The notes under the pieces are model-generated. The model searched no databases, was not told the origin of the DNA, and was given only the letters and a program-made list of their open reading frames with translations. The position numbers were made by a program, and so were the translations under genes. Source: Streptomyces sp. A012304 (GTDB taxonomy: Bacteria > Actinomycetota > Actinomycetes > Streptomycetales > Streptomycetaceae). Taken from it: a DNA stretch of 64,000 nt. The stretch spans positions 1 to 64,000 of the forward strand of contig NZ_BQUN01000118.1 in NCBI RefSeq assembly GCF_026008495.1, given 5' to 3'. Below are positions 37,046 through 40,849 of this stretch, piece after piece; the first letter of the stretch is position 1; the number at the start of each line of letters is the position of its first letter.

Positions 37046-37063
37046 GATACCCAAGGGGGTATC
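37046..37063. promoter_or_regulatory. CsoR/CstR-type operator
   Basis: Palindrome GATACCCAAGGGGGTATC (7-4-7) 18 bp before the repressor start, so it would overlap the promoter/leader. The same half-sites recur at 40832-40849, consistent with autoregulation. Confidence 0.75.
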
Positions 37064-37080
37064 TCGAAGGAGTGTGGGTT

Positions 37081-37362
37081 GTGGAACTGGCGATGGCGGC
37101 TGAGGAACTGAAGACGGTGGTCAACCGACTGCGCCGGGCGCAGGGTCAGATCGCCGGTGTGATCAAGATGATTGAAGAGGGGCGGGACTGCGAGGACGTT
37201 GTCACCCAGCTCGCCGCGGCGTCCAGGGCTTTGGACAAGGCCGGTTTCGCGATCATCGCCACCGGGCTGCAGCACTGCCTGACCGATGCGGACATGGCTG
37301 CTTCCGGTGACCGGGAGCAGATGCGTACTCGGCTGGAGAAGCTGTTCCTTTCCCTGGCCTGA
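37081..37362 (+). CDS. CsoR/CstR-family repressor, sulfane-sulfur type
   Basis: 93 aa from GTG 37081. All-alpha DUF156 protein: [40 protein letters not shown] and [17 protein letters not shown]. Cys37 and Cys66 correspond to the two conserved thiols, but the copper-ligand His position (62) is Gly. Loss of that ligand fits the persulfide-sensing CstR subgroup, where the cysteines crosslink with sulfane sulfur, rather than Cu(I) sensing. The convergent genes encode rhodaneses, a TauE/SafE exporter and a persulfide dioxygenase, in agreement. Expected to bind the GATACCC/GGGTATC palindromes. Confidence 0.88.
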
Positions 37363-37429
37363 CTTGTGGTGCCGCGACGCCGGACCACCCGCCCGGTTCG
37401 GAGCGGTTGGCCATATGGCCTGGCATGCG

Positions 37430-37465
37430 AAAGGGGAGGGATCCGGAGCCGGGTCCCTCCCCTTT
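37430..37465. terminator. Bidirectional hairpin between csoR/cstR and the rhodanese operon
   Basis: 12-bp stem AAAGGGGAGGGA / TCCCTCCCCTTT with a 12-nt loop that can itself pair, in the 113-bp gap between convergent genes. T-runs flank both ends, unusual for this GC content. Confidence 0.85.
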
Positions 37466-37475
37466 GTGGTGTGGT

Positions 37476-38051
37476 TCAGCGGTTGCGCAGTGCGGCCAGC
37501 GTGTTGTCGAGGTCGGCGGCGCGGGGGCGGTTGTGGGGGAGCTTGGCGAGCATGGCGGCCATGCCGCAGGTGTTGGTCAGGGCGGAGAAGACCAGGCCGC
37601 CCGCGATGCCGGCGGAGATGAGCTGGAAGGCGGGGTGGACGACGAGCCCGAGCAGCAGGCCGAGCAGCACGATCACTCCTGCGGTGAGCCTTACCTGCCG
37701 CTCCATTCCCCAGGTGGCACGGGAGGCGCCCTGGGGGCGGTGGAGCTCGTGGCCGTCGGCCGCCCAGGCGCCGGTGCCTCCCGACAGGGTGGCGGCGGTG
37801 ATGCCGTTCTCCGCGAGGATCTTGCAGGCGTTCTCGGAGCGGGCGCCCGAGGCGCAGACGACCAGGACGTCGCCGCGGTCGGTGGCGTGACGGATGTCGG
37901 GCAGCGCGCGCTGGATCTGGTCGAGGGGGATGTTGAGCGCGCCGGGGAGATGGCCGCCGGCGTATTCGCCTGGGGTGCGCACGTCGATGATGGTCAGTTC
38001 GTGCAGGCGGGTGCGCGCCTCGTCGGTGGCGAGGGCCGTGGGTGTGGTCAT
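37476..38051 (-). CDS. Rhodanese-DUF2892 membrane sulfurtransferase (YgaP-like)
   Basis: 191 aa from ATG 38051; ATG 38063 is an alternative. An N-terminal rhodanese domain with the active-site loop VVCASGARSEN (Cys66) follows IIDVRTPGEYAGGHLPGALN. The C-terminal part has two TM helices (LTAGVIVLLGLLLGLVV and ISAGIAGGLVFSALT) with the NTCGMAAMLAKLPHNR segment of DUF2892. This layout is that of E. coli YgaP, a membrane sulfurtransferase. It is the last gene of the cst-like set, 136 bp past tauE. Confidence 0.9.
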   Translation of the reverse strand: MTTPTALATDEARTRLHELTIIDVRTPGEYAGGHLPGALNIPLDQIQRALPDIRHATDRGDVLVVCASGARSENACKILAENGITAATLSGGTGAWAADGHELHRPQGASRATWGMERQVRLTAGVIVLLGLLLGLVVHPAFQLISAGIAGGLVFSALTNTCGMAAMLAKLPHNRPRAADLDNTLAALRNR

Positions 38052-38187
38052 GGCAGATGCCATCCTTGGGTGTCGGAGTGTGCTGAGCTTGGTCTGACGG
38101 GAGCCGGACGGAAGGCGGTCGTGAGATGCGCGGCCGGCTGGAGAAGCGCTTCCGGTCCCTGGTCTGAGCCGGTGGCGGCCCTCGTGT

Positions 38188-39293: not shown

Positions 39294-39328
39294 CACACGC
39301 TTCCTTCCTTGCGGGGGGGCGGCCGAAC

Positions 39329-40693
39329 TCAGGCGGAGGCCAGGGGCAGCCCGGCTTCCGTCGCGGCGTCGAAGCCGTCGTCGACGGCGACCACGTCGCG
39401 GCCGGCAGCATCGAGCAGGGAGGCGGCGATCGCCGCGCGCATCCCGCCGGCGCAGTGCACCCACACCGTGCCGTCCGGCACCTCGCCGGTGCGGCCGTGC
39501 AGCTCGTGGATCGGGATGTGGACCGAGCCGTCGATGTAGCCGCCTGCGCGCTCTGAGTCCCGGCGCACGTCCAGGACGACCACGTCATCGCCGCGCTGAC
39601 GGATCTCGGCGAGGTCGGCGAAGCGGGCACGCGGGAAGGAGACGAGCTGCTCGCCTTCACGGACCCAGCCGGCCGGGTCGCCGGTGGCGGCGGCGGCCGG
39701 GCGGTCGATGCCCACCCGCGCCAGCTCCCGCTGCGCGTGGGCGATCTGCTCCGGGGTGTCGGCGAGCAGGGTGACCGGCTTGCCCCACGGGATCAGCCAT
39801 GCCAGGTAGGTGGCGAGCTTGCCCTCGCCCTCGAAGTTGAACGACCCGGCCACATGCCCCTCGGCGAAGGCCATGCGGCTGCGCAGGTCCACGACCCACT
39901 CGCCCGCGGCCAGCCGGGAGGAGATCTCGCCTGCGCCCGCACGCTCGGGCGGGGTCAGGTCGACGGGGGCGGGGCCCGCGGCGTTGGCCGGGCCCATGTG
40001 CGCGTAGTAGGCGGGCACGTCCTCCAGCCCGGCGAGCATCCGCTGAACGAAGGTGTCCACGTCCAGGGTGAGCGCGTCGTTGCTGGTGCGTTCCTTGCCG
40101 ATCGTGGTCGCGTCCCCCTCGGCCTGGGCGGAGGAGCAGAAGCTGCCGAACCCGTGGGTGGGCAGCACCGGCACCTCGTCGTCCAGCTCGACGGCCAGGC
40201 GGCGGGCGGAGGCGTGCTGGGCCCGGGCCAGCTGCTCGGTCAGCCGCGGCTCCACTAGGTCGGGGCGGCCCACCGTGCCGATCAGCAGCGATCCGCCGGT
40301 GAACGCCGCCACACCGCGCCCGTTCTGCTCCAGGACGTAGGAGGTGTGGTGCGGGGTGTGCCCGGGCGTGGCGATCGCGCGCAGGACCAGACCCGCGTCC
40401 ACGTCTACGGTGTCGCCGTCGGCGACCGGGGTGCGGGCGAAGGACACGTGCGCCGCGGCCGGCACCAGATAGGAGGCGCCGGTGACGCGGGCCAGCTCCA
40501 GGCCACCGGTGACGTAGTCGTTGTGCACGTGGGTCTCCGCCACGTACGCGATGCGCACCCCGCGCCCGGCGGCGGCGGCGATCACCTGGTCGATGTCGCG
40601 CGGCGGATCGATGACCACCGCGGCAGCGGCCCCGCCGACCAGGTAGCTGCGGTTGCCCAGACCCTCCAACTCAAGGGTGTCGATGAAGAACAC
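39329..40693 (-). CDS. Persulfide dioxygenase-rhodanese fusion (CstB-like)
   Basis: 454 aa from GTG 40693 with GGAGGAG upstream. Domain order matches CstB: an MBL non-heme iron dioxygenase (1-235; ETHVHNDYVTGG with HxHxD, TPGHTPHHTSY, and LPTHGFGSFCSSAQ with a Cys near the site), a central rhodanese-homology domain without Cys (~260-350; WVVDLRSRMAFAEGHVAGSF), and a C-terminal rhodanese (~365-454) with the active loop VWVHCAGGMRAA. It oxidises thiol persulfides and yields thiosulfate/sulfite. The promoter region holds several CsoR/CstR-type palindromes. Confidence 0.93.
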   Translation of the reverse strand: MFFIDTLELEGLGNRSYLVGGAAAAVVIDPPRDIDQVIAAAAGRGVRIAYVAETHVHNDYVTGGLELARVTGASYLVPAAAHVSFARTPVADGDTVDVDAGLVLRAIATPGHTPHHTSYVLEQNGRGVAAFTGGSLLIGTVGRPDLVEPRLTEQLARAQHASARRLAVELDDEVPVLPTHGFGSFCSSAQAEGDATTIGKERTSNDALTLDVDTFVQRMLAGLEDVPAYYAHMGPANAAGPAPVDLTPPERAGAGEISSRLAAGEWVVDLRSRMAFAEGHVAGSFNFEGEGKLATYLAWLIPWGKPVTLLADTPEQIAHAQRELARVGIDRPAAAATGDPAGWVREGEQLVSFPRARFADLAEIRQRGDDVVVLDVRRDSERAGGYIDGSVHIPIHELHGRTGEVPDGTVWVHCAGGMRAAIAASLLDAAGRDVVAVDDGFDAATEAGLPLASA

Positions 40694-40718
40694 GACTGCG
40701 GCTCCTCCACAAGAACGG

Positions 40719-40736
40719 CGTACCCCGGGGGGTATT
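40719..40736. promoter_or_regulatory. CsoR/CstR-type operator near the cstB-like start
   Basis: GTACCCCGGGGGGTAT, an imperfect version of the operator, 27 bp upstream of the start codon. Another loose pair, GTACCC (40741) with GGGTAC (40757), lies next to it. Confidence 0.6.
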
Positions 40737-40759
40737 TGGTGTACCCACCCTAACAGGGG

Positions 40760-40773
40760 TACCCCCGGGGGTA
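40760..40773. promoter_or_regulatory. CsoR/CstR-type operator (14-bp perfect palindrome)
   Basis: TACCCCCGGGGGTA, about 70 bp upstream of the cstB-like start. GC-rich with T/A ends like the other sites. Several sites in 130 bp suggest cooperative repression. Confidence 0.6.
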
Positions 40774-40831
40774 TTCCTAGGTCCAGAACATCCCCTATAT
40801 CCCTGGGTACGGCATTGCGTCCACTGCGCCG

Positions 40832-40849
40832 GATACCCGGCGGGGTATC
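40832..40849. promoter_or_regulatory. CsoR/CstR-type operator facing a gene remnant
   Basis: GATACCCGGCGGGGTATC has the same 7-bp arms and 4-bp spacer as the site before the repressor gene. The nearest rightward reading frame is only a short remnant, so the gene it once controlled may be mostly lost. Confidence 0.7.

Follow-up and report, generated by a model that had tools for sequence, protein, structure and literature searches.

A putative CstR-controlled sulfane-sulfur locus of Streptomyces sp. A012304 with recurring operators, a predicted DUF302 regulon member and a dioxygenase lacking the aspartate iron ligand

Does a CsoR-family repressor that sits beside a group of sulfur genes in Streptomyces sp. 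A012304 answer to copper or to reactive sulfur, and is the system it would control a new one? The locus (positions 37,046 to 40,849) lies within the first 64,000 nucleotides of contig NZ_BQUN01000118.1 (assembly GCF_026008495.1), hereafter the window, which belongs to a host genome of 9.66 Mb. Here we find that it is very probably a Streptomyces sulfane-sulfur detoxification circuit under CstR control, a function that would carry over from a counterpart characterised in S. coelicolor. A Pfam search of the open reading frames (ORFs) of the window confirmed five proteins with the domains expected of a sulfane-sulfur locus, in agreement with a first-pass annotation of the DNA that had named a CsoR-family repressor, a CstB-like dioxygenase-rhodanese, a further rhodanese, a TauE/SafE protein and a YgaP-like protein. 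The minus strand carries, in order, the persulfide dioxygenase (PDO) gene pdo, the rhodanese gene, tauE and the ygaP-like gene, with the start of tauE overlapping the 3' end of the rhodanese gene, and cstR faces this operon from the plus strand. The four minus-strand genes presumably form one transcript; a scan for sigma-70 promoters found none, a result that is uninformative in Streptomyces.

The genes are tied together by a recurring palindrome. The window holds exactly four copies of its core, TACCCN4GGGTA (37048, 40721, 40760 and 40834), as compared with 0.00 expected from 100 dinucleotide shuffles, and allowing one mismatch still yields four sites against a shuffle mean of 0.65. The full pattern ATACC...GGTAT is present at the sites starting at 37046 and 40832, and the sites at 40719 and 40758 begin with GTACC; three of these starts are those given by the first-pass annotation, which had placed the last GC-rich variant at 40760 rather than at 40758. 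We compared the best 80 loci matching the window PDO protein in named genomes (79 Streptomyces and one Actinomadura), which are not independent, several being nearly identical. Across these loci, TACCC palindromes were found 216 times, whereas each of the 19 alternative arrangements of these five letters gave 0-3, and chance palindromes were rejected on this count together with the shuffles. Two sites lie within 100 bp of the pdo start in 60 of the 80 relatives, spaced 37 bp apart in 35 of these 60 loci, and a site is found within 80 bp of the gene for 61 of 66 CstR matches (>55% identity, >60 residues).

The repressor itself carries Cys37, Gly62 and Cys66. Gly62 aligns with a histidine of CsoR (PDB 4m1p) that we take to be a Cu(I) ligand, leaving no histidine at that position, and Cys37 and Cys66 align with the two cysteines of 7mq1/7mq3, presumably structures of CstR. 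All 66 CstR matches of at least 55% identity read C/G/C at positions 37, 62 and 66, and a damaged 67th match (L051, 41% identity) reads L/G/C. The CsoR/DUF156 fold, the two cysteines and the missing copper-ligand histidine support an assignment to the CstR type, the persulfide-sensing subfamily of CsoR; residues, sites and sulfur genes thus all bear out the earlier idea of a sulfane-sulfur locus with shared operators and a CstR-like repressor, including its glycine.

A circuit of this kind has been shown experimentally in S. coelicolor by Lu and co-workers, consisting of ScCsoR, ScPDO, TauE and Rhod (SCO0618-SCO0621; PMC7533328). According to the relevant passages of that report, ScCsoR (SCO0620) recognises ATACCn6GGTAT in the pdo promoter (at -48 and -9) and also binds between SCO0621 and its own gene, and it is released by polysulfide with persulfidation of Cys37, as evidenced by electrophoretic mobility shift assays, mass spectrometry and mutants, among which C37S and C66S keep DNA binding and lose release. 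The same passages describe ScPDO (SCO0618) as oxidising glutathione persulfide (GSSH), with O2 uptake at a Vmax of 1.19 umol/min/mg, its deletion as raising sulfane sulfur, and pdo and tauE as co-transcribed; of 1977 Streptomyces genomes, 1248 were counted as having pdo homologues, 773 of these with a CsoR-like gene nearby (PMC7533328). The window holds the repressor, pdo, tauE and rhodanese genes along with ATACCn6GGTAT-type sites, and it agrees with the S. coelicolor circuit, as described there, in gene content, in the Cys37/Cys66 numbering, in the 16-bp site ATACCn6GGTAT, in two pdo operators set 39 bp apart (-48 versus -9) and in an operator before the repressor gene. The locus is another instance of this published circuit of Streptomyces; it shows local decay, and DUF302 is a predicted member. 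The first-pass annotation was right in kind, but the S. coelicolor system had already been published, and the locus is not the first such case among actinobacteria.

By analogy, the CstR-type repressor would bind TACCCN4GGGTA once ahead of cstR and at two places in the pdo promoter, and hydropolysulfide or an organic persulfide would modify Cys37, with Cys66 needed, whereupon the repressor would leave the DNA and the pdo-rhd-tauE-ygaP operon would be made. The rhodaneses would then pass sulfane sulfur on, PDO would convert persulfide to sulfite, and TauE would export the sulfite. The genes, residues, operators and their conservation are observed directly for the window; DNA binding, release, the Cys37 persulfide and PDO activity, shown for the S. 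coelicolor counterpart, are likely to be the same for the window copy.

Several points weigh against this assignment. The window PDO is without the canonical aspartate discussed below, so that the activity ascribed to it rests on the assay of ScPDO, whose residue at that position was not read. Among the 80 related pdo genes, exact sites within 100 bp are missing from 13 and number just one in 7, and 5 of the 66 CstR matches have no site within 80 bp. Seven of the 13 site-less pdo genes (L064, L072, L075, L077, L079, L082 and L085) stand behind another rhodanese match, in loci with no CstR and no site within the sequence stretch examined, and among the six others L052, L069 and L071 have a site slightly beyond 100 bp. 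In addition, the operator pattern is not enriched genome-wide, with eight places, four of them at the locus, against nine for a reversed control pattern, and therefore the evidence lies in the clustering at the locus. The other four genomic sites (L003-L006) were treated as background, as inspection by eye of the filtered ORF lists around them showed no recognisable sulfur gene and the control gave nine.

Two modules adjoin each other in some Streptomyces (L052, L063 and L071), where diverged PDOs (58-59% identical to that of the window) are accompanied by a second CstR (58-60%); the operator core is identical in both modules, making cross-talk possible.

The window departs from the S. coelicolor circuit in having an additional rhodanese gene, in the placement of ygaP after tauE with cstR beyond it, facing the operon, in a remnant of cstR between tauE and ygaP, and in a third operator that faces a remnant of a DUF302 gene (Table 1). 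In 40 of the 80 relatives, tauE and ygaP are separated by a CstR match that is directed away from ygaP, as compared with 9 that show the window order tauE, ygaP, cstR and 31 with other or cut-off arrangements; in L051, a damaged cstR between tauE and ygaP is found together with an intact cstR beyond ygaP. Because window positions 38120-38167 still encode the end of a CstR and L051 has its damaged copy at the same place, an older cstR copy appears to have decayed between tauE and ygaP, with another copy standing downstream. With the decay of this copy, the operator of ygaP was probably lost too, and the gene became dependent on the pdo promoter.

The locus had also been read as a mirror of the cst operon of Firmicutes, a reading that is not supported in that form, since the likeness is not close. 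The S. aureus cst operon includes cstA (a rhodanese-TusA protein), sqr and a TauE gene, and its repressor CstR is a CsoR-family protein with two cysteines and no copper-ligand histidine. The window shares with it the PDO-rhodanese, which matches PDB 3r2u (E 3.7e-38), a protein we take to come from S. aureus. In contrast, Pfam detected neither a TusA domain in the small rhodanese of the window nor a sulfide:quinone reductase in the neighbouring ORFs scanned (4 + 9 proteins, to which the search for a reductase was confined); CstB of S. aureus, moreover, has aspartate at the iron site (plasmid-borne copy L228), where the window PDO has glycine. A further related system is the SUL module of an Arthrobacter plasmid, for which the relevant passage of the report lists CsoR, a sulfur dioxygenase, two rhodaneses, TauE and DUF302, all as in the window, and adds a major facilitator superfamily (MFS) transporter and a small hypothetical protein; operators or regulation are not described in that passage (PMC6305408).

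Table 1. Features of the sulfane-sulfur locus, in positions of the window.
Feature	Position	Strand	Basis
Operator before cstR, GATACCC-AAGG-GGGTATC, 17 bp upstream of the GTG	37046..37063		Sequence scan
cstR, CstR-type CsoR repressor, 93 aa, GTG start	37081..37362	+	Pfam Trns_repr_metal (PF02583) 1e-24
ygaP-like gene, rhodanese + YgaP-like membrane domain; ATG at 38063 or 38051	37476..38063	-	Pfam Rhodanese 8.7e-15, YgaP-like_TM 2.1e-08
cstR remnant, 3' end of an older copy (last 15 codons + stop)	38120..38167	+	Translation
tauE, TauE/SafE sulfite exporter, GTG start	38188..38931	-	Pfam TauE 3.6e-47
Single-domain rhodanese, 121 aa	38928..39293	-	Pfam Rhodanese 6.9e-17
pdo, persulfide dioxygenase-rhodanese (type III PDO / CstB-like), GTG start	39329..40693	-	Pfam Lactamase_B + Rhodanese
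Operator proximal to the pdo promoter, GC-rich variant; by spacing, counterpart of S. coelicolor bsII	40719..40736		Sequence scan
Operator 39 bp upstream of the 40719 site, GC-rich variant; counterpart of S. coelicolor bsI	40758..40775		Sequence scan; counterpart by spacing
Third operator upstream of pdo, GATACCC-N4-GGGTATC, probably of the divergent DUF302 gene	40832..40849		Sequence scan
DUF302 gene remnant, divergent from pdo, residues 90-121 of 131	40894..40989	+	tblastn E 4e-10, 84%

The palindrome at 40832 had been counted among the shared operators; its match to the consensus stands, and the reading we favour is that it belonged to a divergent DUF302 gene, now lost, and is not a further operator of pdo. 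Some relatives have a DUF302 gene (PF03625, 1.8e-24) that reads away from pdo; when every DUF302 match is counted, even a fragmentary one, 24 of the 80 loci have one. Streptomyces sp. NBC_00016 has a linear plasmid on which the gene order of the window recurs, along with four sites and a gene annotated as DUF302. In comparison with L043, the window is missing ~260 bp between the remnant and the promoter (a gap between aligned blocks), corresponding to the front part of the gene, and a genome search left no DUF302 match elsewhere in the host. Of the 80 loci, 18 have a third site at a distance of 100-170 bp ahead of pdo, and a divergent DUF302 match (partial ones included) accompanies it in 14 of these 18 as compared with 8 of the 62 loci without it, with a Fisher p of 4e-7 that is overstated, the loci being related. 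It is rather unlikely that the 40832 palindrome is instead a third, distal operator of pdo, acting by looping or extra repression: the site is still an exact match to the consensus though most of the DUF302 gene is gone, and L054 and L056 retain a site there with no DUF302 match, but the third site tracks the divergent gene, is absent from 62 of 80 loci and hence not general to pdo, and, in two of the four third-site loci without divergent DUF302 (L105 and L109), stands before a divergent cstR. The 40832 site thus probably served the lost DUF302 gene.

We predict that DUF302 is under CstR control as an additional member of the regulon. The family occurs in 37 of 150 genomes of the genus, and of 46 DUF302 matches in the genus, 24 have a CstR-type match (at least 58% identity) no more than 12 kb away. 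The 30 best DUF302 loci include CstR or PDO in 22 cases and have an operator within 300 bp upstream of the domain, on the matching strand, in 15, many of which show sites that also pair close to pdo and may be pdo operators. Plasmids of Rhodococcus and Mycobacterium also have DUF302 next to genes for CsoR-family, TauE and PDO proteins, and in Thermomicrobium it adjoins PDO.

The enzyme at the centre of the locus raises a question of its own. Its architecture is that of a type III PDO or CstB, with an N-terminal PDO domain of the metallo-beta-lactamase (MBL) fold and a C-terminal rhodanese with its cysteine (Cys186, Cys414), and it matches PDB 3tp9 (E 3.5e-60) and 3r2u, both near full length. 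Iron is bound in human ETHE1 by His79, His135 and Asp154 (PMC4383860, as excerpted), and in the PDO of A. caldus, according to the relevant part of the report, by H57, H113 and D130, where D130A/E/H variants retain 0.5-2% activity (PMC6060420). The window PDO, which carries His55, His57, Asp59, His112, Gly134, Arg143, Asp145, Thr179 and His180, keeps the two histidines of this triad (His55 and His112) and has Gly134 (40292-40294, minus strand) in place of the aspartate.

This substitution is not peculiar to the window. Gly134 and Thr179 are present in the main PDO of all 80 named loci, and glycine occupies position 134 in 99 of 100 matches, three copies of the window's own gene being left out. 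In a wider, redundant set of 182 aligned matches, 152 have Gly134, always with Thr179 (152/152) and all actinobacterial, and in the other 30 aspartate (29) or histidine (1) is accompanied at position 179 by Gly, Ala, Cys or Asp. Thinning to a maximum of 75% identity leaves 76 representatives, 49 with Gly134/Thr179 and 27 others. The 182-match set excludes partial matches, duplicates of the window (L151 and L156-L158) and loci below L041. Nine plasmid sequences from outside the actinobacteria have aspartate (8) or histidine (1) at the ligand position, and Asp-type relatives occur within the actinobacteria too. His55, His57, Asp59, His112, Arg143, Asp145 and His180 are near-invariant across both types, in a comparison with the same kinds of exclusion and a longer list of window duplicates.

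In the tree, the Gly rows form one clade of 47 with three rows elsewhere. When columns 134 and 179 are removed, the tree requires two changes and a single origin is not rejected (p-AU 0.438, approximately unbiased test), which is why independent origins of the Gly/Thr pair were set aside; only one independent pair stands on well-supported branches. The perfect link between Gly134 and Thr179 may thus be a single event and is no proof of functional coupling. Thr179 is nonetheless a candidate for compensating the lost aspartate, because it precedes a histidine, His180, whose counterpart in the A. caldus enzyme is predicted, in the part of the source concerned, to hydrogen-bond the aspartate ligand.

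There is about an even chance that the window PDO is one of a large group of actinobacterial persulfide dioxygenases, a subfamily working with no carboxylate iron ligand, in which iron would be held by His55 and His112 together with water, substrate or a third histidine (His57). The low residual activity of the A. caldus D130 variants, and the absence of the aspartate from 152 of 182 gathered matches, could instead point to a persulfide transferase, a hydrolase or a sensor without activity, in which case the work would fall to TauE and the rhodaneses; this is improbable, given that O2 uptake with GSSH was measured for ScPDO, the product of a comparable locus, that sulfane sulfur rose when ScPDO was deleted (PMC7533328, in the passages cited above), and that the remaining active-site residues hardly vary between Gly and Asp types. 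The words iron, metal and ligand do not occur in the main text of PMC7533328, and the open-access literature searched, much of it in excerpt, yielded no description of a carboxylate-free iron site for the PDO family, which is a weak absence.

Two further observations concern this protein family. The host genome has a second Gly-type PDO (L152, G000:C199:193656-194933), ~39-40% identical and next to a rhodanese match, with no exact operator site in the 4.3 kb examined. A plasmid of Cytobacillus oceanisediminis (L240) encodes a PDO-like protein lacking the rhodanese, beside an ArsR-type regulator, with histidine at the position of the aspartate ligand.

That the repressor is a copper sensor and its sites CsoR copper operators is highly unlikely: it belongs to the CsoR family, its best NCBIfam model is the copper repressor RicR, and CsoR operators are likewise G-tract pseudopalindromes (PMC3902906, in the part consulted), but the RicR score is 53 bits against a cut-off of 175, Gly62 replaces the histidine throughout the CstR matches, a separate CsoR-family match, the one other in the genome (L001), retains the histidine (...EEHLRHC), and the operon is made of sulfur genes with no copper gene among the neighbouring ORFs scanned. 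We rejected copper sensing on the residue, the separate His-bearing CsoR and the neighbour genes.

The neighbouring ORFs given to Pfam matched DLH hydrolase, TetR, FAD_binding_3, DUF6262, Phage_integrase, L32p, HAD-like, Dodecin, Bac_transf and Hexapep, with one protein giving no match. The DUF6262 gene and the phage-type integrase lie at 44257-46172 on the minus strand, a few kb from the locus. A plasmid module of Mycobacterium adipatum has DUF6262 and tyrosine recombinases beside PDO, and one of Rhodococcus fascians has integrases beside PDO. The sulfur module is possibly mobile.

Taken as a circuit, the locus confirms the published Streptomyces system and extends it with a precise operator rule, and the predicted additional regulon member, DUF302, belongs to a family present in several actinobacterial sulfur modules. 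The Gly-type dioxygenase matters more than the regulatory circuit: aspartate variants of a proteobacterial PDO keep little activity, yet a natural subfamily is without this residue and the enzyme of a comparable Streptomyces locus is reported to be active, which makes the role of the third iron ligand directly testable with natural enzymes.

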